Positions 3,003-42,429 of a stretch of 64,000 bases of DNA are shown here, piece by piece. Position 1 is the first letter of the stretch, and each line of letters begins with the position of its first letter. Position numbers and translations under genes: made by a program. The DNA comes from Loxodes magnus (taxonomy: Eukaryota; Ciliophora; Karyorelictea; Loxodida; Loxodidae). Location: the NCBI GenBank assembly GCA_946699065.1, contig CAMPDV010000911.1, forward strand, positions 101,941-165,940, in the 5' to 3' direction. The notes under the pieces are model-generated. The model did no database searches. It saw only the letters and a program-made list of their open reading frames with translations, and had not been told where the DNA came from.

Positions 3003-3158
3003 GAAACAGTTGATCAATTACTAAAAGCTGGTAAATTATGTAATGAATAAGGTGTTAATATGTTTAAAAATTTAGCTAATTTCTTGTAATTTCCGGTATT
3101 TTACTTAATTAGTATTATCATATTGTTAAATATTTTTAATAGTTTAAATTTTCCTATT

Positions 3159-6700: not shown

Positions 6701-8077
6701 TTATAATTATTTAAAATTATTATTTAAACAGATACTTTACTAAATGGAGAGAATGTATAGTTTCATTAGTTAAATATCTATTAGTATAATATAGATAGTT
6801 TTGTTATTTATAAGAATTAAATAATAAAAGTTAATTTTTTATTAAGTTTATTCTGCACATTGTTAGAATTAAAAAATAGATCTTTTGATGATTAAGATTT
6901 AAAGCATATAACATAAATAAAAAATCTAAAATAATAAGTTTGATATATTTACTGACATTATTTAAAATTAAACATTATACAGAAACTAAAACTTTTATGT
7001 ATGAGCAAAATTAATAAATATATTATAATCTTTATAAAAATGTCAAAATAATAATAAAGCAAATAACTTGTAAAATTAATTAACTATGATTAACAAATTG
7101 TACTATATTAAATTAAATAAAAAATTGGAATTTAAACAATCTAAAAAAGTAAATAAATTCTTATAAGCAATAGAAAGAGATATAAGCACTCTTCAAATAA
7201 TATTAAAAAGAGAATTAATTTTAATTTCTATTTAAATATAAATTTATTAAACTAATAAAAAGAACTACAAAAATAAAATAATTCAACCTTAATTATAAAA
7301 TGACAATTCCTGAGATAATTAAGTTTTAATCTTAAAGAGAATAATGTTTTCTTTAAGGAAGTCTCTTTTGTGAATTTTTCTTTAGATAGTTTATTTCTCG
7401 ATATTTTAGATTTGATCCTTTACTTATTTTACAATAAAATTTTAATGTAAATTAAAGTCAAATTTTTTGTGTTTAAAGCTTAAGTTTAGAAATCAATTTT
7501 CCTTAAGTCTCGAAATTATCTGCAAATGATACAGATTCACTTCAAGGTTTTTGGTAAAAGTTTCTCAAGTTTTCCATTAGTTTTTTTATCATATAATCAA
7601 AATCGTAATTAGCAAAAATATTAAGTACTTTCTCATTAATTCATAATCTTAAAGTAATTCCTAATTAGATTTAATATCTTGAAGAGAACGCATCCAAAAA
7701 ATTGCAAGTGGAATTTCAATTTTATAATATGAATTTTACATAGAAGTTTGTATTTGCGTAAAATGCCTTGCAATATATCCTTGTTGAATTATTAAGAGAC
7801 AAGTTAAAAGCATAACGATTAATAGTTATACTTTTCAAGTTTCCTAATCTAAAAATTATATCTTTTTTTAAATTATACATATTTATTTTTCCATCTGAAT
7901 TAATATAAAAATTATTAATAAATTGAAGTTTCTTAAGAATTTTAAATGTTTAAATTTTATTTTTATTTTGACTAATTCTACTAGATTTTAGCTTTAATTA
8001 TTTTTATTACTGTAAATTAGATAAATTATTATCATTATAAAATTAAGTTTTTTTTAAATAATTTAATTATTAAGTAA
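3750..8077. other. AT-rich spacer, no assignable gene
   Basis: No domain or RNA signature was recognised. A slightly GC-richer stretch at 7,330-7,800 has long minus-strand frames broken by TGA and could hold an unrecognised gene or remnant. Elsewhere the sequence is short A/T runs. No tRNA-like GGTTCGA block was seen. Confidence 0.4.
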
Positions 8078-10909: not shown

Positions 10910-12220
10910 GATTGTATTTCTTATTAATGAAGAATAATATTTTAAATTAAAATAAGCAAAGTTAATATTTTTCTTTTTGTTTAATAAAAATTTAAAATAA
11001 TTTATTATATAATCTCTTAATATTTTATAAAAAACCAAAGAAAATGTAAAAACATTAATTAAATATAATTTAAAAATATTAAAAAAATATATAATTCTAA
11101 ATGATATTATAAATAAATATTTAAAATATTTAATAATGTTTAGATAAAACATATAATAAATTATGTAATCTCTATTTTAACCTTAGAAATTTAGTAAAAT
11201 ATTTTTAAAAGTTAAATTAAAAATTATAAGGAAAACTTAAGAAATTAAATTTTTCTATAGAAAATGAATATAAAATTTACTAATTATTTAATTGACACTA
11301 TCATCTTCTATTAAATTATTTAAAAATATTACTAAAATAAAAATAAAGTATAAATTAATTAATCTAAAAAATTTAAAAATATTATATTTCTAAATTTTAT
11401 ATTTAGCAATAATTGTGATAAAGATAAATATTAAAGAATATTAAAAATCTTACAGATCTAGCATTGATTGACTTTTTAAATAAAGAAATTCAACAAAAAA
11501 AATATAAAAAATTAAAAATGTTAAAAATGTTAAAAAATTCTGTAACTCTCAGATTTTTATAATCAGCCTATTCGAATATAGTTTACTTTTACTACTTTTT
11601 ATCAATTATGGATGTATATATGATAAAAGTACTAATTATTTTACTAATCTAAAATTTTAAGTTCAGCTTAAATGAAAACTTTTAAATATTTGAATAAATA
11701 AGTAAACAAATTATTTAATTTTTTATTTTCTAAACTTAATATGAAATCCCGTAAAATGTTTTTGAAAAATAATTTGATCCATATCAATATTAGCATTCTA
11801 ACTTTAAATATTAAGTAAAGTAGAAATTTAATTAAAATTTTGAATTAAATACATATTTATTTTTTTAATTTTATTGATTAAAATATGCCTATAAACAAAA
11901 AAATATGAAACTAGGACCATTTTCTATTAAAAGAAGATTTAAAGTTTATTTAAGAATAATAGAAATACAAATAAAATAAGATTAAATTTTTTGATAAATT
12001 TCTAATTAAAAAAATAAATTATAAATTATAGTAAATTTGAATATCATTCTTGATTATTTAAAATTTAATATTATTTAAATATTTTGAATCTAAAACTAAA
12101 TTTTTTTGTTATTAAATTTTATAAAACTTACTCATTTATAATTACAAATTATAAGCTAAAATAATATTATTATAATAATAGTATTTATAATTTATTTATG
12201 TATCTTATATTTATTATTTT
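10910..12220. repeat. 1.3 kb dispersed direct repeat, copy 2
   Basis: Same element as 1,707-3,002, same orientation. Its left edge abuts the WD40 coding sequence, so on the minus strand the gene's upstream part is replaced by this repeat. That indicates insertion into, or a break within, a formerly longer gene. An open frame under the standard code runs through the edge (10,877-11,152, -), but its upstream half is only repeat sequence. Confidence 0.8.
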
Positions 12221-15097
12221 TATAAATTTAATTTCATAGAAAAATAATTAGTAATAATTAGTATTTAATAATTAATGCAATTATTTCTAATTTATAATTA
12301 AAATCAAAGTTGTCTAATTATAGAGAGATTGGAAAATGCTATTTTTTTACTTAAAGTAGATAATTAAAATTGTATAAGAAAAAATAATTAATTTATAAAA
12401 TAAATTATATCAATAGAGTATAAATCCCTTCTTATTTTTAGTTTCAAATATCCCTTTCTATTAAAAATCATTTTTTAAACATTTTCTACGAAACTAATTA
12501 TAAAGGTATCTTTTGTAATCAATTAAAAACTCTATCAAGTTGATAAGTAATATTTATACTTTTATTGAAGAGAATTTTTTTCTAACTATATTATAGCAAG
12601 TGGTTATCATACTTTCAAATATATATAAAAATTAAAATATAAATGACTAGCATTTAAAGCCTTTGCATTATAAAAAAATGTATTTTATAGAAATTAATTT
12701 AAACAATAAACTATAAAGTAAATAAATAATATAATAAATAATTTTGCATCATGAATGGATTCTTTTTATCTATTATAAAAATCTTTAATGTCTTATTATA
12801 TATTAAAATAATATATTTTTATATTTTACAAAATAGTTTTAATTAATTTTTCATTAAACTTTAGCTAAATCTTTATAAATTAAAAAATATTTAGATATAA
12901 AATTTAAAATATTTAATTTGTAAAATTATTAAAAATTTAATTAAAATATCATATGATTTTAGATATAATTATAAATAAAAGAAAGTATAAAATTTATGTA
13001 TCCTATTTAAAAATGATAGTTAGTTCTTACTTGATTTTAAACTAGAATTTACAATAACTGCTAATTTTTTATTATTATAATTATCTATATTATAAAATAA
13101 ATATAAATTATATTAGCTTTATTATATTAATAAAAATACAAAAAAATGAGTGAGGAAATAAAGTAAATCTTAGTATTAAAAAATAAGATACTAATAAGAT
13201 TTAAATTATTATATTTAATTAATTTTAATTTTATATTACTTTATTATAGTATAAATATATAAAATTAATTCTTTTTACCATGAAAGATAATTAACTTTAA
13301 TTTTTAACTATATGCAATATATCACAAATATTATATATATATACACTTTATATTCATAAACAAAAATAATTTATTTAAAAATTATAGTTTATAAATGTTA
13401 TAATACTTTATCACTTTTAATTATATTATATTTAAAATACAATGTTTCATAGATTAAATGGAATGTAAATTTAATAATCATTCATATAATTTGCCTTTTT
13501 ATTTAAAAGTAAAAGTTTATTTGTTAATTTAATTATTTACCCTCCTAACTGTTTTACCTGTCTTATAGTTAATCTTTCAACTTATTTCTTTCTCCAAATT
13601 TATTTAAAGATTAATGAAAGAAAAAATAAATATGTTAGTATATAAAAATTATTCTATATTATTTGATTATTATGCTAAAACATAGATACTTAACCTAGAA
13701 ATAATATATTGCTTTATATTATATGATAATTAAATTATAGTCAGATTTAATTAATTTTACATTTAAAAAAATTAACACTTTATTAATTTAGACTCATAAC
13801 TTTAAAATTAAAAATCTTTATAGCTTTATAATATTAGCAATTTGGTATAAAGTTGTAATGTATTTATATAAAATGTAGATTTTAGTTAAAAAGTTATAAA
13901 TTAAAATAAAAGATAAAAGACTAATTCTGATTAATTAGTTATCTATCTTGTTATTAATTAAACTACTAATAAAATATATTAATAGAACTAGTAACTTTCT
14001 TATAAATAATTAATATTTATATAATAATTCTATAATTTTTAAACCGCAATTTATAATATCTTTTGAACGAATTAAAGTAATTAAATATTATATTATAAAT
14101 GATTTAAATATAATATCAAACCATAAAATACTTTTATAAATATTAAAAGTAAATATTAATATTTTTCAACTTTTAATTATTTTAAATGCTCACTAGCTTT
14201 ATTTTTTTATTTTCTTTATTTATTCTATCATCTTGTTAAAAGGCTTAAGTTATCTTTTTTTATATTTTAATTAATTATCTCTACTTTTTATAAGATAAGA
14301 GAAATTTGAGTGATATATCTTAACTAAATATATTGATTAAAATTAAGTAGAATAGAACTTAATACTTTTAACAAATTTGAAAATTTAATTTTTTTGATTT
14401 TGCAAAAATGAATTTAATCCTTTCCTCTTCTAATTACTTATTTGCTCAATTTAACCTGTATTTTCGACTAGGATTAATAGTTCATTTTTGAGATTATAGG
14501 CAGATTTGACTGACAATTCGCTTATTTAAAGTTTTTTATTATTTTTTATATAAAAAATCTTACAATTTTTGTTCAATTAAGTCAAAAATTTTAAATTTAT
14601 ATCCTAGAGACAGTCATAACATCAATTTCACTTTCTTATCCTCAAAATTATTGTGATTTAATTTATCTTTCTTATCCATCTCTGATAACAATCTAATTTA
14701 CCGAATTCATTTATTTACATCAAAATTGATCTTCATTCAAGCTTTGCTTAATTCTAAAAAAGATAATTTCTATAAGAACTGAGATATAAATAACTTATTA
14801 TGATCTAAGCAATCATTACCCTCAAGAACTTCCTTCATTTACTATTTTAAATGTTTTTCTAATTTCATTAAGCCAATTTGATTTTTAATTTGAGCTCAGT
14901 ATACTACTCAAGAAATGTGAATAATAAAACATAAAAATATCTGTAAGCTGCTTCAAAACTTACACAGTCTTTTCTGCTTATAAAATATTTCGATTATGGA
15001 AAGAGATTGTATTATGGTGTATTAGTGACTATAGCAATTTATTATTAAATAACAAAAAAATTTGATTCATTTTGCCTTATAATAGCATCTGGATTGA
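12221..15097. other. AT-rich spacer with a coding-like stretch at the right end
   Basis: 12,221-14,400 holds nothing recognisable. From about 14,500 the plus strand becomes less AT-rich and has long frames that run into the ORF at 15,098 through a frame change at a run of eight T near 15,107. It may be the upstream part of the same unknown gene. Confidence 0.4.
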
Positions 15098-21000: not shown

Positions 21001-22759
21001 CTTAAGCACTTTCTATAATACTCTTCTTTTTAATGGGTTTAAAATAATTAAATTATCTTCATATGTTTATAATTTATTTGTCAAATAAGGTTCTGACTTG
21101 TCCTCAGTCGCTTTCTTAGGATAAAGATAAATTAAAAGGAAAAAATTTTAATTTTTATGGGATTGCCAGTTACTCAAGTAAGGGTTAATCAAGATAAACA
21201 ACCTTGAAGTGAAAATGTTTTTAAGTTCTAGAGTAGTGCATAGGCCTTTTTACTAAAGTAAAGCATTCTCTTAGTTTATTGAACTAGAATTATGAGACAA
21301 TTAGTAGTGCTTGAATAACTTGTATTTTTTGAGTATCATCTAATGATTAAATTTCTTCTTTTTATTTACTTAATATTAATACAGCTTTATCATAGTTAAG
21401 ACACCCTAGGTTTAAGTATAGATATTAGCTATCTGATTACTATTGAATATTAAAATAAGAAGTAATAAAAATTGCTGATTATTAGTATCCTACTAATAAC
21501 TGTAATATAACTGAAATAAGCTTTATACTAGTAATTGATAAGCTAATAATTAGCATCTACTTTGAACATCTAGCTTTAAATATTGATAAGCTTACTAAAA
21601 GAATGTACATTTAGATTTTAAATTAAACAAATAAAGGCATAAGTTATTAGTGTCCTAGTTATTACTTATATTTATATAATATCTTTTAGATAATTTTTCA
21701 ATCTATTATTTCAAAGTATCTTTAGCTAATTAATGTAACAATTTTAGACTTATAAAAGCTAATTAAATTCCATAAGAGAAGCATACAAAGATACTAAACT
21801 ATTACATTCAAGCTTTCAAAAGGGAATAGTATTTCTCTTGGTGTTTTGCTTAAATGAATTAGAACATTAGAAGGATTAATAATTTACTCATTCACTATTC
21901 TTAAAATATTCCTTTAGTTATTTACTAACATATAATAACTAACCCATCAAGCACTGCCAACATTATAAACAAGTTTCAGTAAGCAACGTTTCTATTAAGC
22001 ATAACTGTCTTTTAAAAAGATTATATTATGGGAGATCTTAAGATAAACATATCTAAGGAGATTGAGAATATAAAATAGATTTTTTAGAGCTTGAGATTAA
22101 ATAACTAAATACTAATATTAGTATTACTAGATTAGCTATAAGAACAATCTTTAAATTGTAGTCCTAACACTATTAATATTAACCTTACTTACTATAAAGC
22201 TATTTAATCCTAATAATACTTCTATTGCTTATTAATATTTTACCTATAATATCATTCTTTTATATTTAACATTAAATATATACCAGTCTAAGTTTTTACT
22301 CTCATTTCAATAGTAATCAATCAAGCTTCTAACAAACTTACACAAAAAGGCTAAACTCTAATCTAAATTTTTACCTGCTTTTGAAGACTATTACAAAGAA
22401 AATAAATCTTAATAGTAAAGTAAAGTGTCTAAGATAATTGCTGAAACTAAATTAACTAATGTTATTTAAATAAAGCTTCAAAACTTTATTTTAAGACTAA
22501 AGATCTTAGATTAAATTCAGTCCCTCTATGATACAAAAAATGTATAATAAGTAGAATAAATACATTAAAAAGGATTAAATAGAAGTTGATAGAAAGTTGA
22601 AGCTTTGTAGTGTAAAGTAGATTCAATTAGATAACTGCTAGAGAGTCAAAAGATGGGAGTGATTAAGATTATAAATAAATCTAAAACCTTAGTATTAAAC
22701 TGTAGTTAAATAAGAGATTTATTTTTGGAGAGCGGAGGGTCTTAAAAGGTATATATTTA
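21001..22759. other. AT-rich spacer, no gene seen
   Basis: No family signature or RNA gene was recognised. The interval separates two minus-strand coding blocks. Confidence 0.4.
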
Positions 22760-25220
22760 TCAAATAAGGTAATATGACTAAATTATACTCTTATAAACAG
22801 TATTTTAGGTCTAGTATATTGAACTGCCTTACTCTACTCCTGTAATTTTAGTAAATATGCGATGATAAAAGACGAGAACTCCATCGCTCATTTTAGCAAT
22901 AGTATCTCCAAACTGAGCCTTATTGCTATTGAACGTAGAGTTGTGGATTTCAGTGTAATTGATTTGTTATAATATAATAGCACCACCATATTAAGTGGTA
23001 CTTGTACCTTTACTACCAAGTACGAGTTCTTTACTATAAAGCTAACTTATTTGTTCTTAGTTTGTATGCAAGCTGCACTAATCGCGCTGTTATCTGAACA
23101 ATATAGGTTTTCTATTAGAATAGTGTTGAATGAGTCTAAATAGATCCCAGCAGATATTTAATTTACTTTATTGCTTTAAATTGTGGTATTACCAAAGATA
23201 ATATTCAAGGCTTAATCACTAAAAACGCAACAAAAATACAACCATTTCCAGAGTAAATTTAAGCTCGTCCTCTATCAAATTGATTGAATCCGTTTCCAGA
23301 AACCACCTCCCTTATTGTTAAGGATTTAGCAGCGATATAAAAAGATTACGGGAGTAACTTTTCTTTGACTAAATTAAATATCCATTGCATATACGATACT
23401 TCCTAAATCCTGAGAAGAGACTATAATATTATTCTAAAATTCGCTGTTCATCAAGCATAAGAAAGTGAAACCCTGCATTCCTTCTACATTTATCAGATAA
23501 ACTCTTTACTGAAACTATTTTTTATTACCTTTAAAGGTTACTTTATCAAAGATCAGAACACCTTTATGAGACAGATTGAGTAAATACTAACTATAGTTAA
23601 TATAGCTAATTATCGTATTTTTAAGGATCACCTTTGAAATTTAATTAGCTATTTCTTTAGATTTGGTCGATTTACTATCTGAAGTCGTTTAATTGTAATC
23701 TGTTATAATATGTTAGTCAACTTCAAGAAACTGCTATAAGAGTCATTGAAGATCCAGCTATTTATTACCAGGTAAGTCAACTAGATATTGTTATCCATGC
23801 TAGATAAGAAGATTAGCCTTCCTTTAATTAACCAGTTCAAGTTGAAAAAAGAATTGACCATTTAAATATTTTTATTAGTTTGAGTTTAATTTAGAGTCAG
23901 TAAAGAGAGAATGCCAGCTTCTGATGCTTAATATTTAACTAGGGTTGGCAATGATATAGAAGGTATCTATAAGTACATTGTCATTAGTTGCAAATATTAT
24001 AGCTTAATATTCATCTGTATTACTAGAAAAAATAGAATTGAAAATACTGAGAGAAATGCCAAAGTCTAGTTAAATAATGAACCTTAGCCAATGCTTGAAT
24101 GTCAGAGAATATAGTAATTTATATAATAACACTTTTAAAATATTGGAGATATAGTAATGAAGCATTATTCTGATAGCCATTTATATAATTTTGGGAGAAT
24201 TAGCTTTCCTTTATATATGTAGTATGCTAGGAGTTGATTATCAAAAGGAGAACACATTTTGAGAATTTTATTATTATTAAGGCTAATTATTATCAAAGTA
24301 TCAAAGTCTTGAGAGGTAAAGACATACAATCATATAACTCCTAAGAAAATCTTGTTATCGCCATAGAGAGAAGTTCAGTTACAAGTCTATTTCCAACGCT
24401 AGATTCTAGATATCTCTGATTTAAAAAGAAGAAAGCTCGTTTTCTGAGAGATGGTATAAGAAATATTAATTACCATCTGGCTAGTAGTTTAATGAGACTC
24501 CAAAATTTTAAGTTTCGAAGTAAGAATTACCCTTGGATTTTACCTGAAGTAGAGATATTTACAAGTAGTTTTCAATGCTGATAACTGTGGAGCATAAGTT
24601 GGAAATAAAGTTAGCATTCTGAATGAGTAACTTTTTATCTAAGTTAAATTTAGATCAGGAATCATCTTTCCACTTACCTCCTTATTGATTATTTTACTAT
24701 TATGAAAATCCGAACAGAAGAATATAACTAATGTTTTGGATTTAATTCGTTTACTACATGAAGCAAGTGTTTTCCTCGAAGGTCGAGTTCTTTATATTAA
24801 CATTTGGAATAATAGAGTCTGAACTAGTTTATAAGGAAATAATGTATCTTGAGCTCTGATCTTTATATACACCGAAATTATTAGTAAATTAACAATTCTC
24901 GACATTTACAGTCAGATCTAAAGTTTGCTTTGTAAGAACGTACTAATAAATATAATCTCCCCGTTCCATGCCAAGTTACTACTAAAGATACAATCCTTGA
25001 ATAATATTCTAGTTACATAATATAAATAAATAAAAGCTTGATCACTACAACATTAATCATTTTAGAAGCAATTTACGATCTTATTTTTATCAAAAGTTAC
25101 TTAGGAGATAGTAATATCATTAGCAAAATAAGTGAAAAGAAAGCCATTTTAAGATAGTAGAAGGCTCTAATTCTTTTAGGTATTAAGGTTGTAATCTTAT
25201 GATTTGCGTTATAAACCATT
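22760..25220 (-). CDS. Beta-helix surface-type protein, frame-broken
   Basis: Several minus-strand segments share the F/S-x-x-N and GGAI pattern of right-handed beta-helix proteins, like the polymorphic outer membrane protein repeat also found in ciliate surface proteins. From 5' to 3': ITISQVTFDKNKIVNCF and LFKDCIFSSNLAWNG (near 25,000-25,130), NIKNSTFEENTC (near 24,790), NANFISNLCSTVISIENYL (near 24,600), FGNTTIQSNKV (near 23,180) and QYGGAIILQQINYTEIHNST, then FNSNKAQFGDTI (near 22,900-22,990). The last frame ends at TGA 22,760-22,762. Segments sit in different frames; the best-resolved junction, near 23,020, is a one-base (-1) slip. No signal peptide or ATG could be fixed, and the true 5' end may be farther upstream. 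The gene is divergent from the RING/Ubl gene at 25,502. The beta-helix call is an inference from repeat pattern. Confidence 0.5.
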
Positions 25221-25448
25221 AAAAAAATTAAGTTCAGTTACTGTTCCTTAGTATCATTAAAAGGTTTATATTTTTTTTTACTTTTTAATATAGTTTGCAG
25301 TTAAAAGCACATTAAAATTTATTATTTTTTTTAAATTAAATTTCATATTTTATTAAATTTAATTTTAAAATTATATTTATTTAAAATAATTCTATAAAAA
25401 TAATTATATTATAATATTTTTTTATTTTATTATTATTATTATTATTTA

Positions 25449-25462
25449 ACGTATATATACGT
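25449..25462. promoter_or_regulatory. 14-bp perfect palindrome upstream of RING/Ubl gene
   Basis: ACGTATATATACGT is a perfect palindrome with a TATA-rich core, about 40 bp before the ATG at 25,502 and within the intergenic gap shared with the divergent beta-helix gene. It is the only palindrome of note in this gap. A promoter role is inferred from position only. Confidence 0.3.
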
Positions 25463-25501
25463 GGATTTTGTTTAAAAGGAAAAGTTTTTTAAAAAATAAT
25501 A

Positions 25502-27673
25502 ATGTAATCTGAAATGTCCTAGACTGCTAAATGTCTTTAGTGTCAAGGAGATTTTAATGGGTAGATGTAAATCCCAATGTTGTTACCTTGCAATCACAGC
25601 ATATGCTTTACCTGCGTCACTGATTAGTATTAGAAAAATTAGGCGATCAAATGTGTATTCTAAAATTGCTAAAAAATACATAAGGTTCATCCTATAAAAC
25701 TTCAGGAAGACACTTAGTTACTCAAGCGTCTTGAACAAAAGAACCTCATGGGAAATATATCGATGTTAGTGATTCAATCGTCAAGAGTTCGTAAAGCTTA
25801 AACTTAATTGTCCAAGGTCTACAGTCTTTTTATCTAGTAGTTGATAAAGCACGTGAATACTTATTTGTTTAAGGAGAATATCAGCTTACAAAGACAGTTG
25901 ATTTAGTAGGATAAGTAAATCTAATAATAGTTGAAGTTTTTCAAACTCTAGAAATAGATGATGGATAAAAAAGGGAGTAGCTAGTAGTAGATCATTTGTT
26001 AAGAATTTCCATAGAGTGAGCAATAAGTTTCCAAGTTGATAGCTGATGTTTAAAAAATCATCTAGAAGAGCAATCAGGTATCGGTTAAAGTTTTTGAGGA
26101 GCTAGACTCTTGCAAGTTTAATCTAACTTAAGTGACATAGGAAAATAGTTACTTAAAGAATGAGATATAAAACTTGAGTAGTTAAATCTAAAATCAATAA
26201 TAGCAGTTATCATCTCTGCAAGTTAAGTAAATTGAATAGTAACAAGTAAAGCCTTAAGTGATATAGCCTAAACAAATTCAATAACCTCAAAATATCCCTA
26301 CTAAGCTTTAGGACATCTAGATAACTATTGTATCGCCAAACAATAGAACGGTATCGTTATCAGTAAAATAAGAGACTACTATCGGTTAGATAAAGCAATA
26401 AATCGAATCATAAACTTATTTATTGTCTAACGGTTTGAGTATCGTTAGGAATAAGGTTATATTGGATGACGGTTAAACAGTAGCGAGTTAGAAGTTGTTG
26501 AATGGTGAGAGGTTGCAAATGGAATTTAGTAAGTTCAAATTTAATTTTCTTACAATAATATAGACGGTAAATAGATTTTATAACTTTAATAAAGAGAAAG
26601 GTGAGTTTAAGATTTACTATATTTAAAAGGATGTAAGTCTTAAATAATATTTCAATAATAGGGAGTAAGGATTAATTATAATATTTAGATGGTAAGTTAG
26701 TATTTAATAATGATTTAGAATGTAAGTTTCATTTTAAATGTTTCGCAATAAGGGTGTAAGTTTCATTTTAAATGTTTCGTAATAAGATTGTAAGTTTCAT
26801 CTTAATAATTATTACTTAATTTAGGTAAGTTTCATTTTAATAATTAACACTTAAGATGGTAAGTTAAAGTTTAAGGTGAAAATGAAGAATGTAAGTTAAA
26901 GTTTAAGGTTAAAATGAAGATAGTAAGTTAAAGTTTAAGGTGAAAATGAAGGGAGTAAGTTAAAGTTTAAGGTGAAAATGAAGGGAGTAAGTTAAAGTTT
27001 AAGGTGAAAATGAAGATCGTAAGTTAAAGTTTAAGGTGAAAATGAAGCATGTAAGTTAAAGTTTAAGGTGAAAATGAAGGGAGTAAGTTAAAGTTTAAGG
27101 TGAAAATGAAGCATGTAAGTTAAAGTTTAAGGTGAAAATGAAGTGAGTAAGTTAAAGTTTAAGGTGAAAATGAAGGGAGTAAGTTAAAGTTTAAGGTGAA
27201 AATGAAGATTGTAAGTTAAAGTTTAAGGTGAAAATGAAGAATGTAAGTTAAAGGTTAAGGTGAAAATGAAGGGAGTAAGTTAAAGTTTAAGGTGAAAATG
27301 AAGGGAGTAAGTTAAAGTTTAAGGTGAAAATGAAGTTGGTAAGTTAAAGTTTAAGGTGAAAATGAAGATTGTAAGTTAAAGTTTAAGGTGAAAATGAAGA
27401 TCGTATGTTAAAGTTTAAGGTGAAAATGAAGAAGGTAAGTTAAAGTTTAAGGTTACATTTAGATCGTAATGGACTATTTTAGGTTGTAAGTATTTTTTTT
27501 TATAGTTCATTTTTCAGATCGTAATGTGTTTAATATTGATTTAGGTGGTAAGTGTGATTTTATTGTTATTATAGAATGTAGGTTATTTTAACATTATAAG
27601 GGGGTAATGAGGTTTTTTAAATAAATATTTAGGATGTAAGGGAATAATGCAATGTTATGTAGTGATGAAATGA
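25502..27673 (+). CDS. RING finger / ubiquitin-like protein with a microexon-encoded tail
   Basis: Likely a ubiquitin-pathway protein. Exon 1 (25,502-26,528) gives 342 residues plus one base, with TAA/TAG as Gln and no TGA. A RING-type zinc site is at residues 11-56 (C11, C14, C30, H32, C35, C38, C51, C56); the last pair is four residues apart instead of the usual two. A Gln-rich coiled coil spans about 110-260. A ubiquitin-like fold spans about 272-342, with DIQITIVSPNNRTVSLSV and VILDDGQTVASQKLLNGE aligning to both halves of ubiquitin; it lacks a terminal Gly-Gly, so it is a domain and not a conjugated modifier. The rest (26,529-27,662) is cut by about 36 tiny introns around 3-nt exons, adding 38 residues that begin NEKGWNEWYYEYRR and end YREWGLMK before TGA 27,671-27,673. 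Total is about 380 residues. The start was chosen as the first ATG after an AT-rich leader. Exon 1 is firm; the tail rests on splice logic. A second in-frame TGA follows two codons later. Confidence 0.85.
26529..27662 (+). other. Array of ~36 tiny introns separated by 3-nt exons
   Basis: Introns begin GTAAG (variants GTGAG, GTATG, GTAAT, GTAGG, GTAAA) and end TAG, AAG or CAG. Lengths are 35, 28, 29, 29, 24, 27, 31, 31, 35 and 31 nt, then eighteen of 29, then 28, 17, 32, 24, 27, 23, 29 and 27. Three-nt exons start at 26,564, 26,630, 26,662, 26,689, 26,719, 26,753, 26,787, then 26,856 and every 32 bp to 27,432, then 27,463, 27,483, 27,518, 27,545, 27,575, 27,601 and 27,633. The last exon starts at 27,663. 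One exon is 6 nt (26,595-26,600) if the AG at 26,593-26,594 is used; introns 9 and 10 abut at 26,824/26,825 with no exon. Exon 1 ends in phase 1, so every codon from 343 on spans an exon junction. Joined in that phase the codons are open to TGA; in phase 0 the TGA exon at 27,144 would be a stop. Non-repetitive introns at both ends keep the same GT...AG plus 3-nt rule although their interiors are unrelated, which a plain minisatellite would not explain. Confidence 0.8.
26859..27434 (+). repeat. 32-bp tandem array: 29-nt intron plus 3-nt variable exon, 18 units
   Basis: Eighteen head-to-tail units each hold a near-invariant 29-mer running from GTAAGTTAAAG to AAAATGAAG, followed by three variable bases. 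Only a handful of substitutions occur in the 29-mers (near 26,910, 27,254 and 27,406), while the triplets differ widely (GGA, ATC, CAT, TGA, ATT, AAT, TTG, AAG and others). The 29-mers contain no cytosine, so C appears only in the variable triplets. The array sits inside the coding gene and explains the middle of the microexon tail. Confidence 0.95.
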
Positions 27674-28280
27674 GAGTGAAGGACATTACGAACTTATTAA
27701 AACTTTACTTAATTAAGAATTAAAAAATATCTATATTTATAATTATAATTTTCTAATATACTATAGAGTAGGTATTAATAAGTTTACTCAATAAGTATAT
27801 GCTTTTTAAGTGATAATCATTTATATAATATTACTAGTGTTAGATAGTTTCTAAGTATTTGGATATTATGTTATTATATATTAGTTTAAAATCCAGAAGT
27901 AGGTTTAATCTTAAGAGGTTGTAAAAGAGTAGTTTGAGAGTTAGAGTAATAAATAAAAATTGTTTAATGACTGTGTTGTGGGTGAGTATAGGTGGATAAA
28001 GTTTGAATTAGAATCTTATTAAAAGGTTATATTTTATGTTTTTTAAATTTATTTATTAGGTTTTAGTTTGTAAGTATGCAATATGTAGATAATTTTAGTT
28101 TGAATAATTTTAGTTAGAAGTATTTTGATTTTTTAATAATGTGGATATTAAAGTAAAATTAATATTAGAAGAGTTTTAAGAGTTTCGCAGAATTTAATTT
28201 TAAAAGAGTGTTGGGGAGTATTAGGCATATAAAAATTTATTTTTTACTTTTTTGTAAGTTACTTAATTTTGAATTTTAAG
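27674..28280. other. 3' flank of the RING/Ubl gene, no gene seen
   Basis: G+T-rich on the plus strand and poor in C, like the intron array, but without its periodic GT...AG plus 3-nt pattern. Isolated GTAAGT strings occur (for example near 28,070) without matching microexons. No poly(A) signal could be fixed with confidence. Confidence 0.4.
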
Positions 28281-28284
28281 AAAT

Positions 28285-28430
28285 GAAGTTTTTTTTTTTA
28301 GTTTTTTTTTTAGATTTTTTTTTAGATTTTTTTTTAGATTTTTTTTAGATTTTTTTTTTAGATTTTTTTTTTAGATTTTTTTTTTAGATTTTTTTTAGAT
28401 TTTTTTTAGATTTTTTTTAGAAGTAAGTTT
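28285..28430 (+). repeat. Low-complexity array of T8-10 plus AGA
   Basis: About twelve short units of eight to ten T followed by AGA, with a period of 11-13 bp. Each unit looks like a polypyrimidine tract plus AG splice acceptor. Slippage of a simple repeat is the simplest explanation. Confidence 0.85.
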
Positions 28431-28675
28431 AAATTTTTTTTTATGAATTAAGTTTGATTTTTTTTTAAGTTATTTAGAATTTTTTTTTTTAGATTTTGCT
28501 CTATTAGAATATTTTTTTAATCAAAGTAACATGTTAAAAAATAAAAAGTAAATTTGTTTAGTATTTTTTTTTTTAGTATTATGTTAGTTTTTTGGTATTA
28601 TGTTAATTTTTTTTTAATTGTATTTGTTTCTTTTATTATTTTTATTCTTTGAATTTGTATTTTAAGTATCCAAAA

Positions 28676-29640
28676 TTTCAAAAATTTTATTTTTGTTTTT
28701 TTGCTCAGCGTTTTGCACTACAAGAGATTTTTTGTGACGGACCAACCTTTTGTGAATTGGGATAATTTTTTGAATGGTAACCAGGGAAATTAAAAAAATA
28801 AAAGTGTATGATTGGTGATAAATTTAGAATAAGGACTGAAAAATGAAAAATGGATTTTAATTTAAAAAGTTTTTTTCAAAAGGAAAAACGGAATAAAAGT
28901 CATTTTAGAGATTTTTTTAGAAAAAGTTTTTAAAGTTTTAATTTTTTTTTATACAAAATTTTTTTTTCGAAAGAGAATTTAGAAATGGATTTTTTTTTAA
29001 TAATCGGTTAAAATTTCCGCAAATTTTTGTTTTGTTTTTAATTTCATTTTTTTCGATTTTTTTTTAACACGAACATTTTTTTCGGATTTTTAAAATTAAA
29101 AAATTTTTATTTTTTTGGTCATAAATTCAAAAAGGATATAAGTTAAAAAAAGCAAAAATTTTATTTTTGTTTTTTTGCTCAGCGTTTTACACTGCAAGAG
29201 ATTTTCGGGACGGAACAAACTTGCGTGAATCGGGATAAAATTTTTGGAATGTGAATAAGGGCAATGTAAAAAGTAAAAAGGTATTTTTATTGATATTTTT
29301 TAATAAGAACTGAATAATGTGTAAATGAATTTTTTTATTTAAATAGTTTTTCAAAAGGAAAAACGGAATAAAAGTTATTTTAGGATAAAAGTTCTAGAAA
29401 AAAGTTTTTATAAGCAGCTCAAAATTTAAAAAAGGTCCAATTTAAAATTTTTTTTTTTTTGGATTCAGTCTATTTTTTTTCAATACAAAGCTATTTTTTT
29501 TCGGATTTATATAAAAAGCAAAACTTAATTTTTTGTCATAAATTCAAAAAGGATATAAGTTAAAAAAGCAAAAATTTTATTTTTGTTTTTTTGCTCAGCT
29601 TTTTACACTGCAAGAGATTTTCGGGACGGAATAAATCTTT
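28676..29640 (+). repeat. Degenerate tandem repeat, about 2.5 copies of 415-475 bp
   Basis: A block starting near 28,680 recurs at about 29,153 and, truncated, at about 29,570. The best-kept part is TTTTTTTGCTCAGC followed by a TTTT, CACT and CAAGAGATTTT run and a GGACGGAA-like element (near 28,700-28,745, 29,173-29,218 and 29,590-29,632). A second shared part, TCAAAAGGAAAAACGGAATA, closes copies 1 and 2. No open frame explains the conserved blocks, and they stand out against an otherwise AT-only background. Confidence 0.8.
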
Positions 29641-32600
29641 TTCAAAAATTTTTATGTTTGCAAATATTCTTATCTAAGAAAATTTTTTAAAATTTAAATT
29701 TTTTTTTAACGTTTTAAATTTCTTACTTGTATTTTTTTACAAACAACTTAAAAGACAAAAAAAATATTTAGAAGGTTGATAAATATTAAAAAAAATGCAA
29801 TTTTTAGCATAATCATCTTAAAAATATCTAGAATTGTTTTCAATGAGTTTTAAATTTACATAAAATATATTTTGCTTACCTAATTTTAAAAAGAATTCGA
29901 ATGAGAAATAATAATATTCTTAGATTTTTTATTTATTTTTTTAAATAAATTAAGATCTAGTTTAAAAAAAATACGCACTCTGTTTTTGAAAATAAAAAAA
30001 AAAAAAAATTTATAAATTTTAAAAGATTTAATAATTAAGTAAATAGAAAAAAACTGTATCTGAAAAATAAATTAAAAACTAAAGCATAAAAAATCTGAAT
30101 CTATCTAAAATAAAAATATTGCTCTTACTTAATTTAAATTGAAAATATTCAGAACTAAATACAAAAAGAACTTTATATCGAAAATAAAAAATAAAACAAA
30201 ATTAGAATCTTAGTTGAAGTAAAAATAAAGACATTAGTTGTTATATATATAGCTATTTAAAAATAAGATTTTGTTAATCTTTAAAAACGCTTAGAACATT
30301 TTAGATATAGTTACTTTAAAAAAATAGTTTATTAAATTCGTCATAAAAAAATTAACATTAACTATAAACCACTAAGTTAAAGGTAAAAAATCTAAACGCC
30401 CTGAATTTAATTGAAATTTTTCATTAAAATATAATGTATCTTAATTAAATCTATTATATCTAATATATTATAAAACATCGTTAAAGATTTAAATTTACTT
30501 AATTCTCAAAACAAATAAATTACTTAATAAAATGTTCTAAGTTTCTTATAATGGACTTAGATGAGAGTAACATATTAAAAATCCTAAATGTAATAGAAAC
30601 TATTGATTTAATCATAGTTTAAGCATAAAATTATTCTAATTTAATCTTTCATAAAAAATAATATATCTATTTTTGATAAAGGTAGATTAATAGAAGAAAA
30701 TTAGTTCACAGTTAAATTCTCTAAGGTAAATATTTAATAATCTTTTTATCTTTTAATCAAGATTCTTATGTACTAAATTTTTACAATTTAAATATTTGAC
30801 TGAAATATAAATTCCAATTTATTTATAAAAGTCTTACTCTACTACTGTAATGTTTTAAAACTTAATAGAGACATATAATTAAAAAAATTATCAAATAAAA
30901 TCTTTAAATGCATTATAAAACTTTAAACTATAATTAAAAAAGAGGCAATTAATGAATATTCATAGGAAATTTTATTAGCATTTAATTAATCAGAAGTACA
31001 TTTTTTATAATAATCATTTATGTATTCTTTTTATAGAATAGTATTACAGAAATATTAATAATGAAAACATAACCTCGAAAAGTATTTTCTCATATTAATT
31101 TTATAAATTTATTTAAAGAAGCTATAAATAAATATTATTAAATCATAAATAAAACATTTAATTAATACTATCTAAAATATTATTAAACTCTATTTAAATA
31201 AATTTAATAATAGTAAAAACAAATAATATAAAAGTGGTCTCTAAATAAATAGAAATTAAAAATAATTTTCGAACTAAATTCATCAAAATTAAATGAAATT
31301 ATAAAAAAAGAGTATTTAACAAAATTTTGATAAATTATTAAAAAATAAATTATATCTTGATCAGAATTTATAGAATTAATTTTAAGTAAAACTAAGATCA
31401 ATTTTTATTTAAATCTATAACTGAAAATCTTAATCTAATTTAAAACTTCGTTTTAATATATAAACTAATTTAATAAAAAAAGAAAAAATCTTTATTGCAA
31501 ATAATAAGAATTAAATTATTCTAATTATTTAATAAACTGATGATCGAAAATAATTTTCTTTATCTTAGATAAGAAAAATAAATTTCGAAAAAAATTAGTA
31601 TCTAAAATTAGTTGAAGAAGATAAAAAAAAGTAAACGAAAAAAAAATAATTAGCAAAAAAAATTACATAAATTTAATAAAATTTTCCTTTGCGTATGTAC
31701 TTTTTTTTAATTGTAATAAAATACTGCTATTTTTTCTAAATAAATTATTTTTGACATGCTTGTATCTTTTAAATTTTCAAAATATTATTAAAACATTTTA
31801 ATAATTTTTAATTTTTTTCTAAATAGGTAAATTTTAGACGTACTTCCTCTTTCACTTTTTAGATATTTGTAAAAATGTTTAAAGATTAAAATAAACATTT
31901 TTGTTCTGCTTTCTATTTAAACAGTTTATCTAAAGATCAATTTAAAATTAAAAAAATTATTACATCATAATTTTTCTTCTGAAATTAGTCTATAAATAAT
32001 CAAACTTCTTAATTAATAAAGAAAATATCGACATCAAGTATATTTTTTTTAAATAATATAGAAAAGGAGCAATAAGAATTATTTGTTTTTATTTGTTACT
32101 GAAAAGGAAAAAAAATAGGCTAAGAGTTAAAAAAACTGTAAAAGCATACAAAATTATAATTTTTTTTTTTTTTTTATTGTAAAAAATGTAATAAAAAAAT
32201 TTTCAAATTCTTGAGAAAGTAAGAATAGTTTGCTTTTAAGTTTATTTTTAAGTTTTAGTCCTAAAGATAGCAGAATACTATTTTAGGGACATTAATTTAT
32301 AAAATATTTTGTTTGAGTCTTATTAGCTCATATTATTTATTCAAACTAGCAAATTCTTCTTGCAAAGAAAATATAAATATAAATGTTTTCGAAGATATTC
32401 AAAATATCAGAGATATTAAATGAATTTAAAAAATTACATTTGAAGTAAACGCGGTAATTTTTTTTTCTGGGACACAACACCCAGTTTTTAAAGCAAAGTA
32501 AAAATGATATAAATGTTTTAAAAATGAAACATTTATTACAATGTTTATCTGTTTAACATAAAAAAAGTTATAAATAAATTATTTGAATAAATCTATTAGC

Positions 32601-36122: not shown

Positions 36123-38757
36123 TCACTATTTAATCAGCCACTCCAAGCTCATCTGGCTAGAATTTTTAATTTCGGACACACATATACCCGATAGATTCAA
36201 AGACGTAAATTAGTAATCCATCCAATTCAATATCGTTATATTATTAGTTGCCGCTATTTATAAAGAAACATTAGTACTGGATATTCTCACTATCTCCAAT
36301 AGATTTTATTACACACTTGAATTATTATTTGCAGAATTTGAATTATAAATCTCTCTCACAAACTATAGTATCTCCAGATTGTCCACTATCAAAAATTTAT
36401 TTATATTGTGAACCTCTATTGCTTATGCCTTAGCAGATGAAACTAAATCTATAATATTCTTTGCCACATAATAATCTCTTACCGACGCATGAATAAACTC
36501 AAACCTCTTTTTATTATTCTATTCCTTTGTCTATATCAGACACCCTATATGGTTTTAATCGTCCGTAAACTACTCTATCCACTTTTGATTCACTTCATCA
36601 AAGCTTGATATCTCCACCGAATCCTGTAACATCTCCCATGTCGCATTCTTTTAAATACTTTCAAACAACTTTATTTACTAGTTGAGCACCTTACTTTTTA
36701 AACCCTGATTTTACAATTTTTCTTAGGTTCTTTTGTTTCACTAAACTATGAAAATCTCATATATTCTAGACTTTTAAACTACTTAACCACTTTTTAAATA
36801 ATCTAATATCTCTTCCTCACTCAAACAAATATATAGCAGAAAGGGATTACTGATAATTTCTTTCAGACCAGGTATTCTCTATATTAATGCCATCATCTCT
36901 TATATTTAAGATGCTTCCACTTGACTTGAAACTTGACTTACACTTTATTATTACTGGTTCTTCTTAACTAGGACTTTTTCTATATATTTTTCTATCTAAA
37001 CGATATCGAATGGCTTTATATGCAGTTCCTATAACTCTTATAATTAGACTCTTTCGCTACTGTATGGTGCAAAATAATGTTGGTAATTTTTTCTTTTAAT
37101 GCATAATTTACTCTACATGTTATTATATATTTTGCCTGAGGATACTTTTGCTTTAATTTATTACTACTGATAATAGCCTTGCATTCTCCCAACTCATCAT
37201 ACACGTCAAATAAGAACAGAATCTTTCTAAATTTCAATGTCTCATTTCTTTCTATTTAATAATTATCTAAAGCAGATTCTATTAATTTTTCTTTTAATGC
37301 TTTTATAGTTGGGAGATACACATATATGGATAAGTATTCATGTTTCTAGTCTAGATATTTTAAGGCTAAAATATTCAGGAACAAGGACTTTCCAGAACCG
37401 GAATCTCCCAGAAGTAATAATCCTGTCTTAGTATCTTTTCTAAAAATTTCAAAATTTCAAGGTCAAGATCATCCTCAGCTTATGAATTAGGATTAGGAGC
37501 GCAAAGTAAGCTTACGTAATATTCTTGCTTCTCCGAAACCTCTTCTTTTAAAGTCCTTATCATATTTTAATATATACTACTGCTAATGCCCTTAAGTGCC
37601 AACCAATTCTCTTCTATTGTTTAAGTAAATAAAACAAAATGCTCTGGATCCATTAATAATTCTAGAATTATCTAACGCTCTTTTACATTCTTGCTTAAGT
37701 TCTCTTTTTTAACTTAAATATTCTTTCCTTATAAGTGCAAGCTATTTGGTTCTTTTCTAAGGTCAATTCCAAAAATGTCTTCATTGCATAGTACCTTATC
37801 TACCAATCCTTGTCGTCACATAGTTTTTCTAAAAACTTACATGAGTCTTCTACCAATTCTGCACTAGCTTACGGGTTTTTTATCATGTGTTTTAGAAGAT
37901 AGCATGCTCTAAATCTTAAGTCTATTTTTTCTTTCAAAACAATATCTCAAAATTGATAAAATTTTTATTTTGAGTATTGTCTCACTAAATCACATGCAAG
38001 AGCATCTAAGACTCGTAATCTAATAATCTTTTTATAGTTGAGCTTCTAATTTACCCAACCTTTTCCTCATAAGAAAAACTCCTTTATAATAGAGATCGCT
38101 TCTGACCCAAAAACTCCAACTCAAAACGTCAAGGCAATTATTCATTAAGCAACTTTTAAAATCTTACATAGAATTCCAAAATATTCGGTTTCTTTGCTAT
38201 CTGGAATATTCTCCAGAATCATCAAACTAAATCTTAAGTAAAAATCTAGTTCTGGACCTCCAATCCTATTTTTATTTTTATTTACTAACTTTAAGCTTAT
38301 CTTTTATTTTTAAAATGAGCTCTTCTTTTGTTTTTTCATTTATAAAGGAGTTTTACTCGTTCTTCTAAAGCAACATAGCCAATAACTCAGGAAGATTTCG
38401 TACAAGCTACTCTTTCAAAAGCAAAGACTATCCTTCAGCATACTTATGGGAAATAATTTCAATGAATTTATTTATAAGAACTAATGGATCATTGATATTG
38501 CCAAACTTATTCTTTTGAATTGTTTGAATTCCTTGTAGAACTTTATCCATCTTTTATTCATTCAAACCTTCTTTTAAGAGCTATAATCCTTCTTGATAAA
38601 TCTTTTGTTCCTTATTACCAAAAACTTGTTCATCTTATGAATCTAGGAAAGTTTAACTCTCTTTATGATTCTTGTATTCATATTCATTCATTTAATTATT
38701 TGTAGTTTAGCGTTCATCCCTTTCTAGTGTCTTTTGATTGTTATTAATAGTTTTCAT
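36123..38757 (-). CDS. HEAT-like/NACHT P-loop NTPase, STAND-type
   Basis: A large intracellular switch or scaffold protein of the STAND class. Starting at ATG 38,757-38,755, a polar N-terminus leads into helical repeats resembling HEAT/ARM (IIRLRVLDALACDLVRQ, DKDWYIRYYAMKTFLELTL). A P-loop follows, LLLLGDSGSGKSLFL (37,377-37,425), then Walker B ILFLFDVYDELGE (near 37,170-37,215), the NACHT-type ELHIKPFDIVQIEKYI (near 37,000), and IPGLKEIISNPFLLYICLSE near 36,810-36,870. Next is IYEIFIVQ-TGA-NKRTQEKL, where relatives usually have Trp at the TGA. The C-terminal part includes KRFEFIHASVRDYYVAKN. The frame ends at TGA 36,123-36,125, though a frame change there could join the Lys-rich tail. The reading frame slips by -1 near 37,765 and 37,440 (both TTAGAAAAG) and near 37,055, and passes four further TGA codons in the repeats. 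It is either a decayed gene, or a live one with TGA = Trp and single-base assembly losses. The domain call is secure. Confidence 0.8.
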
Positions 38758-40643
38758 AAAGAAAGGAGAACCAAATCGGATTAAAAGAACATGTGACTTT
38801 AAGAATTCATTTGTCTAGTTTTATTACTGAAAGCCTTGATAGTTTCTCAGAACTTAACTGAAAAGATAGCAATTCGAATTGCAAATTTCAGTAAACATTT
38901 TTTTATCTTAAAGACTAAATTCTCTTAAATACCTTAAATTATATAAAACATTAAATAAAATCAATTAATATTAGCTTTATCTTCTATAACTGTAAAAGCT
39001 AATTGTCTAAATAATTAATAATTAAATCATTTTATACTCTAACTCTATAAACCTAAAACTAATTAAAATCAGCTAGCTTTAAATTAAGTCTATTAAATAG
39101 ATATAATTCTTAAATATAGAAAAAAGAAAAAGAATCTAATGAATCACAATTAAAAAGCTAATAAATAGATAAATAGCAAAGTATCAAATGTTAAAAACAG
39201 CTAATTTATACATGGTAAGCATTAAATTTATTAATTTTAATAGGTTTTGCTGATATCATCTTACTTGGTATCCAAGTAACTTATAAAATAGCCAGATATT
39301 TGCTTATTTTTGACATAGCTTAAAATAAATCTAATAATTAAGTCTAAAAGCTTTTATTTTCTATTTAACTGAGAGTATTTTAAGTTTCTAACTGAAAAAT
39401 ATAATTAAGATACTAATTGTAATACTAATTGAAGAGATTCTACATAATTAAAAATAAATTATTAGTTTCAAAACAAATTCTTCCCTAAAAAAAGAAAAAT
39501 CTGAAGAAGACAGTCTTTTATTAAGCTAAAAAAATAGATTTAAACTAAAAAAGTTTTTTATTAGTTAAATAAGGAAAATGATTACTATTTAATATATTAT
39601 TTTCACTAAAATTTCTTAATAATAAAAATTAAATAAATAAGCAAAAGAAACTTATTATTCTAATAAAATAAGCTTTTAAATAAAGGTTTTAATAATAGTA
39701 GAATCATATATCTAATATAATAAAATATAATAATTTCTATAATTAAGGTAATAATAATTAAGATTATATATATTATATTTAATAAAAAGTAAAGCATAAG
39801 ATAAAAGAAAAACTTATTTTAACTAGTTAACTTTATTTAAATTATATTAGATGTATTATCTAATTTCTACTATTCAGATACTCACTAAATTTAGCAATTA
39901 TAATAAAATGTCTTAATGAACTAAAGAAAAATTAAGTTTCTAATTATTTTAATAAATCTATTTGAAACTAAAATTAAGACAAGCTCTAATAACTATAAAG
40001 AAGCTAGCTTATATAATAAGAATAAAATAAAGCTAAACATTTATTAATCAAAAATGTTATAATTTATCTTAATTAATTATAAGCCTTTAGCTTTACTTAG
40101 TTACATGTCTTTAGGATTTTAAGACTAAGAATTATCTTTATTTATAAGGTATTTTAGTAGATAAAATTAAGGCTAATTTTTAATAATGCTAGATGTTGCT
40201 GTTAGAAAATAAAATTGAAGCTAGTTAAAATTATTAAAGATAAGCTAGCATGACTAATATGATTAAAACTAGATGATAATCTTAAATCATAAAATCTAAT
40301 AAAATGAGGAATTCATTAAATAGAACAAAATAAATTATACCTAGAAAATTCAAGCAAAGTTATAAATATTTAAGTTAAAGCTGAAATTCCAGAATGCAAT
40401 TCTGAAGAAGATTCCTTCAAGGGCTGAGAAGTTATATGAAGAAACTAGTTAATAATTAAATTTTAGGAAAGATAAATAGCATAGAATTAAAATATTACAT
40501 GAGAGGGACAACAATAACGAAAATAATAATTTAGAGATATTAAGTTGCTACAAAATTAAAAGAATGCATAAATCTATTTAAAAAGTTATTCTGTGTAATT
40601 TTTTTGCTAGATATCGGTGCTAAAAGAAGAAAGAAATTTAAAA
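38758..40643. other. AT-rich spacer, no gene seen
   Basis: Upstream of the NACHT start the same frame stays open for some codons without an ATG that improves the start. No other gene was recognised to 40.6 kb. Confidence 0.45.
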
Positions 40644-41513: not shown

Positions 41514-42429
41514 AAAGCTTAAACCACCCCATTAAATTTGTAATAAATGAAGATTTCACTGTAATAAAGGTTACTTATGAACTGTTTTCCTAAGCTCTAT
41601 TTTAATAAATAGACACTTACATTTGTTTAATTTTTAAATTAAATTAATTAAAAAAGGAAAAGCTGAACATTAACTTATTAAAGCAAATAATTATCTTCTT
41701 AATAAAACTTACTAAACAATTCCATAGTTGTAGAGATTAAATCTTATTATAGGAGAGCTATAGAATCAGTTAAGTCTTCTATTTTTTTGATACTATATTC
41801 ACAAGTTGTGACAGTTAGTATATAAGATTGAAAAAAGAGATTTAATTCTTAATAGAATAATATAAACATTAAAAGTAACAAGTCAAGATTAAGATAACAA
41901 CACTTTAATATCCTTAATATATACATTTATAACCTAATTCAAATGCAACTTAAAGGTGTGATATTCAAGCTCCACTTAAAATTTTATATCCTATCTGCTG
42001 AGACATCGACCCTTAAAAAATGTTCTGGACTTAATTTAAAGAAATAATTTTTAAACAGCAATGAAGATTCCAGAAAAGATGCTTAAAAATATCGAAGTTA
42101 AATGAAGAGATAATCTGAAAGTTTTAAATTAAATTCAAGGATTTTCTAGAAGTGAAACCTCAATAATGCGGAACATCAAGAACTAAAAAATTAAAAATAA
42201 CTAAGAGGCAGTAGAGGTGGAAAAAGGAATAGTTTAAGATCATAATATAGATAGGAATAATGTCTTAAGCTTACAAGTTAAATTTGATTTATCTAATAAT
42301 TTTTAACTTATTGAATTATTTAGAATAAGATCATTAGCTTGCTTGATTATCTTTCAAACATTATTTAAATTTTAATCTTCTAGTTATAAGCATTAAACCA
42401 AAATAATAGAATCATATTATATAAATAAG
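41514..42429. other. AT-rich spacer, no gene seen
   Basis: No recognisable feature. It ends at the outer edge of the left arm of the large inverted repeat. Confidence 0.4.

Follow-up and report, generated by a model that had tools for sequence, protein, structure and literature searches.

A dispersed gene family in Loxodes magnus with hypervariable tails predicted to arise from chains of one-codon-sized exons

We describe a gene in a 64,000-nt stretch of the genome of the ciliate Loxodes magnus (the window) in which a large first exon is followed by an array of very short putative introns with three nucleotides between nearly all of them. The gene probably belongs to a dispersed family encoding RING/coiled-coil/ubiquitin-like proteins, in which the C-terminal tail is made from a chain of one-codon-sized exons that are spliced by intron definition and whose codons have been shuffled. 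Judged from a comparison between gene copies, three aspects go beyond a preliminary description of the same DNA: the predicted tail is hypervariable, the family is dispersed, and the pattern is genome-wide.

The array (26529-27662) parses into 36 GT...AG introns of 17-35 nt. Among its 35 internal exons, 33 are 3 nt long; the others are one of 6 nt (AGAAAG, 26595-26600) and one of zero length (26824/26825). Exon 1 ends one base into a codon, and 38 open codons follow in the phase so set, NEKGWNEWYYEYRRNPWTLRNQWRIDYQDRYREWGLMK, among them five Trp, five Tyr and six Arg, before a TGA at 27671-27673; the two other phases both contain stops. The preliminary description had given the same number, size and spacing of GT...AG segments, the same length and phase of the 342-codon exon before them, and the same composition and stop of the tail, and our reading agrees with it on these points. 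The introns carry the U2-type GT donor and AG acceptor consensus: 13 of the 19 window introns listed start with GTAAG, and their ends are TAG (11), AAG (7) and CAG (1). The array can be divided into a 5´ anchor, a hypervariable core and a 3´ anchor (Table 1). The 3-nt rule extends, as previously described, to the less repetitive units at both ends, but the introns there do not all lack further likeness, since four in the 5´ anchor (26722-26855) each begin with GTAAGTTTCAT and make up a second intron family.

Table 1. Features of the array gene and the surrounding repeated stretch, in window positions
Feature	Position	Strand	Description
Exon 1	25502..26528	+	1027 nt, 342 codons plus 1 base; NCBI code 6; RING - coiled coil - ubiquitin-like protein
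RING finger region	25532..25654	+	residues 11-51; Pfam zf-RING_UBOX, E=4.3e-5, 23.9 bits (cut-off 25.2)
Ubiquitin-like domain	26321..26521	+	residues 274-340, just upstream of the array; Pfam PF00240, E=1.2e-4, 22.2 bits (cut-off 25.4)
5´ anchor	26529..26858	+	10 introns (24-35 nt); exons ACG, AGAAAG, GAT, GGA, ATG, AAT, GGT, ATT, 0 nt, ATG
Zero-length exon AG/GTAAG	26824..26825	+	recursive-splice-like junction
Hypervariable core	26859..27434	+	18 units of a 29-nt intron (consensus GTAAGTTAAAGTTTAAGGTGAAAATGAAG) and a variable 3-nt exon
3´ anchor	27435..27662	+	8 introns (17-32 nt); exons ATC, GTT, ATC, GTG, AAT, GGG, GAT
Terminal coding exon	27663..27673	+	TG/ATG/AAA/TGA stop
Stretch alike in other copies	22048..32263		extent of the similarity seen between loci

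Several controls bear on whether the spacing could be accidental. The longest chain joined by 3-nt exons comprises seven introns in the 5´ part (26529-26858) and seven in the 3´ part (27463-27665), compared with at most four in 3000 dinucleotide shuffles of each part and with three in the rest of the window for any exon length from 0 to 12 nt. A count of AG-N(k)-GT[AG] that is independent of any parse gives eight occurrences of k=3 at each of the two ends, and 0-2 and 0-3, respectively, for all remaining values of k between 0 and 20. Further chains within the window, e.g. one of three introns with 3-nt exons on the minus strand (48217-48307), are at the level of the shuffles and were rejected. 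Among the 18 core units, the 29 intron positions have a mean pairwise diversity of 0.011 and the three exon positions one of 0.70, a contrast that plain duplication followed by even mutation cannot produce.

The L. magnus assembly (705.7 Mb in 7843 contigs) contains many copies of the gene. A query made of two introns matched at least 175 places (at least 435 candidates, 40 scored), and a query with exon 1 gave 402 candidates at first look, 40 of which were scored, the window gene included; all 40 match at 92-100% identity. For comparison, 27 further loci (L031-L057) were taken, namely 24 distinct places among the two-intron matches listed and the three closest by exon 1. The array architecture is present in 28 of 28 genes. 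A script counts 24-62 introns per array and 222 in L031; in the window gene it misses the first two introns (34 counted instead of 36). With a parser that favours 3 nt, 872 of the 918 exons parsed have this length; being frame-keeping and no longer than about 30 nt, they would qualify as coding microexons. At least one zero-length exon occurs in 26 of the 28 parsed arrays, at a position that is not always that of the window. Exon 1 is intact with an ATG in 18 of 25 copies, and these have a median dN/dS of 0.36 at a median dS of 0.19 (153 pairs), by which measure exon 1 is under purifying selection between copies. No intronless copy was found in the 705 Mb with the one 5´ spliced-junction pattern that was searched.

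Two of the arrays deserve separate mention. The longest, L031 (contig C469, positions 78-7505, minus strand), has 222 introns in the parse, but 26 of its exons measure 2 nt and 11 measure 6 nt, and 72 of its 149 core triplets are AAT; it lies near a contig end, parses less cleanly, and may be decayed or contain sequencing errors. In L055, one core unit carries the second intron family (31 nt, GTAAGTTTCAT...), as if the whole unit had moved in.

When copies are compared, the outermost anchor triplets hardly change. The last triplets of the 3´ anchor are AAT in 24 of 24 arrays, GGG in 24 of 24 and GAT in 22 of 24 (L031 left out), differing by 0, 0 and 5%, compared with 7-18% in the adjoining introns (7-12% beside AAT and GGG). 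At the 5´ anchor, all 23 arrays compared keep GAT, and all 23 have either GGA or GGG (L031 and L049 left out). In the core it is the introns that hardly change: 496 of the 573 with at most four mismatches from the consensus equal it, and the strings of triplets between them, which comprise 3-44 core exons (median 12), are distinct in 27 of 27 arrays. Their order is random between arrays, with a mean z of -0.04; the 25 arrays that have six or more core exons form 300 pairs, of which a single one exceeds 3. The closest copy seen (exon 1 95% identical, the best among those scored) is no exception, sharing seven core exons in order where 7.6 are expected. In translation, the predicted tails share their start (GW) and their end (WGL) around a gene-specific middle: GW begins 22 of the 23 open tails (that of L049 starts later in the parse), all 23 end in WGL and one to three further residues, and YREWGL is found in 14.

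The predicted introns lie in phase 1, and across the copies this phase is kept open. Arrays free of stops number 25 of 28 in the phase set by exon 1, 8 of 28 in phase 0 and 1 of 28 in phase 2 (the window gene and L032-L058), and 23 of 28 are open as far as the terminal TGA (the window gene and L031-L057). All 27 arrays that were parsed to the 3´ end have a last exon of 8 or 5 nt, lengths of equal phase, before that TGA. The 380 core exons of 27 arrays use only 20 triplets, nine of which account for 355, and their 335 junctions give no phase-1 stop, compared with 44 TGA in phase 0 and 27 stops in phase 2. Core exons that start with GA are scarce (3; 27.8 expected), as are those with AG or GT inside them: these dinucleotides open 1 and 1 of the exons, where 54.9 and 26.5 are expected, and close 4 and 0, where 23.6 and 47.2 are expected. 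The junction codons of 24 arrays comprise 28 codons for 19 amino acids, Cys being absent. The proposal in the preliminary description that the triplets between introns are coding exons gains from these copies, through the invariant AAT and GGG, the openness of the exon-1 phase and the last exon of 5 or 8 nt.

The pattern extends beyond the closest relatives of the window gene. A search of the organism's own assembly for GTAAG chains, as the preliminary description had suggested, returned 39,628 matches to three GTAAG donors with two 3-nt exons, a figure that takes in overlapping matches inside one array and is not a gene count, compared with 673 for the reversed pattern, a control of composition and not of spacing. 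Three places with other introns (L058-L060) were picked from matches to the 3-nt pattern. L058 is a diverged family member, the upstream reading of which ends in a like ubiquitin-like domain; it has a different core intron of 28 nt, and its tail keeps GW..Y and WGLM. The upstream reading of L060 ends in a similar LQMKW, and in L059 the introns are of 24 nt, with no gene visible upstream. All upstream gene ends in view (L031-L058 and L060) look like one family, and this comparison suggests a separate core intron for every subfamily inside one architecture. Counting GTAAG-N(10-30)-AG-N(k)-GTAAG without a parse gives 52 cases of k=3 in L058-L060, with 3, 2 and 0 at k=0, 1 and 2 and none at 4-12; in the window and L032-L057 the count is 650 at k=3, 41 at 0, 10 at 6 and at most 7 elsewhere. 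Because the loci were found through their 3-nt spacing, the peak at k=3 is partly built in, a bias from which the counts at the array ends of the window are free. The 29-mer core intron has no match in viral contigs, where records of the organism's own genome may have been left out.

The body of the protein is encoded by exon 1, which has 52 in-frame TAA and TAG codons among its 342 and reads with these as Gln and with TGA as stop. This code is used in other groups besides ciliates. The C3HC4 zinc-binding spacing is present by eye in the RING region, its profile scores lie slightly under the curated cut-offs, and its matches among known structures (PDB) are to the RINGs of TRIM23 and TRIM32 (E=0.005-0.02). 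A single-sequence model of the exon 1 product has low confidence (mean pLDDT 47.7); it shows a long helix between two small beta domains, with a beta-grasp-like end. Weak Pfam matches in read-through frames (E 0.013-0.04) were taken as chance, and simple coding scores were of no use as a gene finder. From the domains, our guess is that the family proteins could be E3 ubiquitin ligases, with the tail as a recognition surface that is pressed to differ.

How such a gene might work and vary can be sketched from the pattern. The transcript would be spliced by intron definition, each intron of 17-35 nt being recognised alone, one after another. Each splice would leave 3 nt and remake the next donor in the form AG/NNN/GTAAG, which is near to recursive splicing; the zero-length exon (AG/GTAAG) we take to be exactly a recursive-splice junction. 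At the DNA level, the near-identical core introns would provide homology for duplication and unequal exchange, and a crossover inside an intron would add, drop or swap whole 3-nt cassettes. With a single 3-nt exon in each 32-nt core cassette, exchange or duplication of this kind would always keep the frame, and since each cassette is split across two codons, new neighbours would give new amino acids. One possibility, on which we are evenly divided, is that this amounts to a codon-by-codon, genome-wide diversity system in which cassettes are shuffled in the germline inside introns to give a repertoire of tails on a ubiquitin-ligase-like frame. In this proposal, which we believe as much as we doubt, about ten triplet types would suffice for the junctions to encode 19 amino acids without any stop. 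Folding of six units as RNA gives nothing special (z=-0.96).

Several observations weigh against the reading of a shuffled family with spliced one-codon exons. The limits of the reversed control and the selection of L058-L060, both mentioned above, belong here, and the splicing of the array is itself deduced from DNA comparison between copies. Exon 1 has no protein relative in our search, and the tail matches PDB entries only at E=0.65-1.4, with no solid relative. Truncation, frameshift or loss of the ATG affects 7 of 25 exon-1 sequences (L031 is truncated; L032, L041, L042 and L047 are frameshifted; L036 and L049 begin with ATA; all were left out of the dN/dS estimate), and 5 of 28 arrays (L031, L032, L035, L047 and L052) are not open in phase as far as the terminal TGA; dead copies or sequencing errors are thus probably present in the family. 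The four inner exons of the 3´ anchor differ by 13-34%, compared with 5-14% for their introns, and the conservation of the anchor consequently rests on nine bases. The difference of 1.6% between the core introns of different arrays takes in only those with at most four mismatches from the consensus. In the core exons, starts with TA, CG and CT (0, 0 and 1; 25, 18 and 19 expected) and ends with TA and GG (5 and 1; 49 and 22 expected) are avoided in a manner explained neither by splicing nor by frame, and a small founder set would be enough for part of the triplet bias. A test of codon order in the window gene is weak (P=0.03 with synonymous usage, P=0.59 with full codon usage). Exon pairs shared between arrays are fewer than expected (359 vs 440) and shared triples are at chance level (66 vs 54, P=0.09). 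Finally, recombination alone is no source of new triplets.

This last point leads to an alternative that we consider possible, if somewhat doubtful, in which the triplets do serve as coding exons but differ through mutation, either because mutation is targeted to the exons or because selection, or copying from intron RNA, keeps the introns constant. The random order of core triplets, even in comparison with the closest copy, would fit such a process. So would the elevated divergence of the gene region (25.5-29.5 kb), which is 7-16% between copies, compared with medians of 2-5% in the flanks (at most 22 loci, L049 left out); synonymous divergence in exon 1 is likewise several times that of the flanks (medians 0.02-0.05). 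The gene region is thus older, faster changing or exchanged between copies. What speaks for exchange of ready-made units instead is the restricted triplet set and, in particular, the longer blocks of exons: those shared between arrays number 21 for 4-mers (5.4 expected) and 6 for 5-mers (0.5 expected), and those repeated within arrays 17 (0.9 expected) and 12 (0.1 expected).

It is unlikely that the units are removed from DNA, as very short internal eliminated sequences, such that the expressed genome holds the tail as a continuous exon. The comparison of copies shows that units leave the coding message, not whether they do so at the level of DNA or RNA, and the neighbourhood is germline-like, with repeats, a broken NACHT gene and few other domains in the stretches scanned. 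However, the boundaries have the spliceosomal consensus (13 of 19 start with GTAAG and all end with AG) at varied lengths, and the continuous junction at the 5´ end of the tail is not found in the assembly, although a pure germline assembly would hold none. We regard as very improbable that the array is skipped as a single intron of 1134 nt (26529-27662), giving exon 1 followed by M-M-K. This intron would start with GTAAG and end with TAG, its length is divisible by three such that the terminal TGA is in frame, and loss of any number of 3-nt exons would preserve the frame in the same way; but with constant skipping the 3-nt exons would be free to vary, yet the last anchors are conserved and one phase is open. 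As an isoform, skipping of the whole array may occur. Most improbable is a minisatellite in the 3´ region, with the array untranslated and the protein reading on to TGA 26711-26713, since, although the unspliced reading is open to that stop (403 residues in total) and the core is a regular 32-nt tandem repeat, a minisatellite should vary across its whole unit and be blind to frame, an expectation that the diversity values and phase counts contradict, and it offers no reason for exact 3-nt spacing among unlike end introns, for variation confined to 3 of 32 positions, for the open phase, or for frame-keeping changes in the length of the last exon.

The gene lies in a longer stretch that is alike between loci. 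Among 23 loci (L032-L054), upstream likeness extends as far as was fetched (window 22.0-23.6 kb) in 16, and in the remaining seven (L039, L040, L041, L049, L050, L053 and L054) it ends at about 25.26-25.40 kb, shortly 5´ of the start codon; downstream, it extends up to 32.3 kb. Position 25260-25400 is possibly the edge of a unit that moves with the gene. Codon periodicity of variable sites is seen only in exon 1, in one 300-nt bin (p=0.003), and nowhere else within the repeat at p<0.05. Just 3´ of the gene, about 17 copies of TTTTTTTTTAGA (28291-28497) resemble repeated acceptor sites, and the 500-nt bin there is the most gap-rich between copies. The gene's strand has a strong skew of G over C (0.37-0.77 per kb) at 26001-29000, extending more than 1 kb beyond the stop codon.

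From its content, the neighbourhood reads like germline-limited ciliate DNA. Besides the array gene, a Pfam scan of 15.4-25, 35.2-39.2, 44-58 and 59.2-64 kb gave one clear hint, a broken NACHT-type NTPase gene on the minus strand (36500-39200) with several frame changes, seen as PF05729 in a read-through frame (E=0.0015, below the curated cut-off) and without a protein relative in our search. Direct repeats at 1738-3014 and 10940-12232, about 9.2 kb apart and 73-92% alike, resemble the long terminal repeats of retroelements. Inverted arms, in pieces at 42420-46145 and 55793-59484, are 71-100% complementary with their inner ends 9.6 kb apart, and may belong to a large mobile element. The Tetrahymena chromosome breakage sequence has four matches in the window with at most three mismatches, no more than chance, and Rfam and tRNA scans of the window gave no match.

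If the shuffled family with its spliced one-codon exons is as we propose, it breaks an assumed limit on the chaining of small exons, with dozens of successive one-codon exons in many gene copies, and provides nature's own test case for intron definition and for recursive-like splicing. Introns would act as frame-safe recombination spacers in a miniature form of exon shuffling in which the unit is one codon, and a ubiquitin-ligase-like frame bearing a hypervariable tail suggests that a unicellular eukaryote has a repertoire for recognition. Such tails would escape gene finders that apply the usual exon limits. Among the papers listed in our searches of the open literature, a scope outside which most subscription-journal papers and bioRxiv preprints as such fall, none describes a chain of one-codon exons in its title or the opening of its abstract.

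Related systems differ in several ways. Short introns are known from other ciliates, with lengths of 15-100 nt (median 24) in Paramecium bursaria (PMC12862383) and 21-29 nt with GTA...TAG in Nyctotherus ovalis (PMC2633312). The lengths are similar to those found here, and the portions consulted make no mention of chains of one-codon exons or of identical introns. Some caution is called for, because Tetrahymena introns of 22-44 nt were judged to be probable annotation artefacts (PMC5014332). Plant APC11 and VPS55 show that splicing can handle exons of 1 nt, the donors in VPS55 being GTRAGT; the part of that report consulted has runs of at most two neighbouring microexons (5 and 12 nt), compared with dozens here (PMC8831610). 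Introner elements of Amoebophrya and Micromonas place many repeated introns in one genome (PMC7789003), whereas those described here follow one another head to tail within a single gene, separated by 3 nt. In the 29-nt unit, the only one inspected, neither terminal inverted repeats nor a target-site duplication were seen by eye, and neighbouring triplets mostly differ, unlike in introners.

The two closest parallels concern the generation of diversity. Tetrahymena LRR genes have tandem 90-bp exons with a single intron phase, clonal expansion and ectopic recombination, and introns with length peaks near 257 or 122 bp (PMC6564038; germline genome in PMC5182062, transcriptome in PMC3274533). Those exons are bordered by phase-2 introns, whereas in L. 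magnus the exons are of one codon, the introns are in phase 1, a Pfam scan of exon 1 gives no LRR match, and the intron is the conserved part. The micro-exon genes (MEGs) of schistosomes have a coding region made mostly of very small symmetrical exons and were proposed as a source of pools of variant proteins (PMC4350168). The exons described here are also symmetrical, but 342 of about 380 codons in the window gene are in one large exon. Compared with the MEGs, the exons are of 3 nt, the introns of 17-35 nt are near-identical in the core, the chains run to dozens, and the variation is between gene copies.

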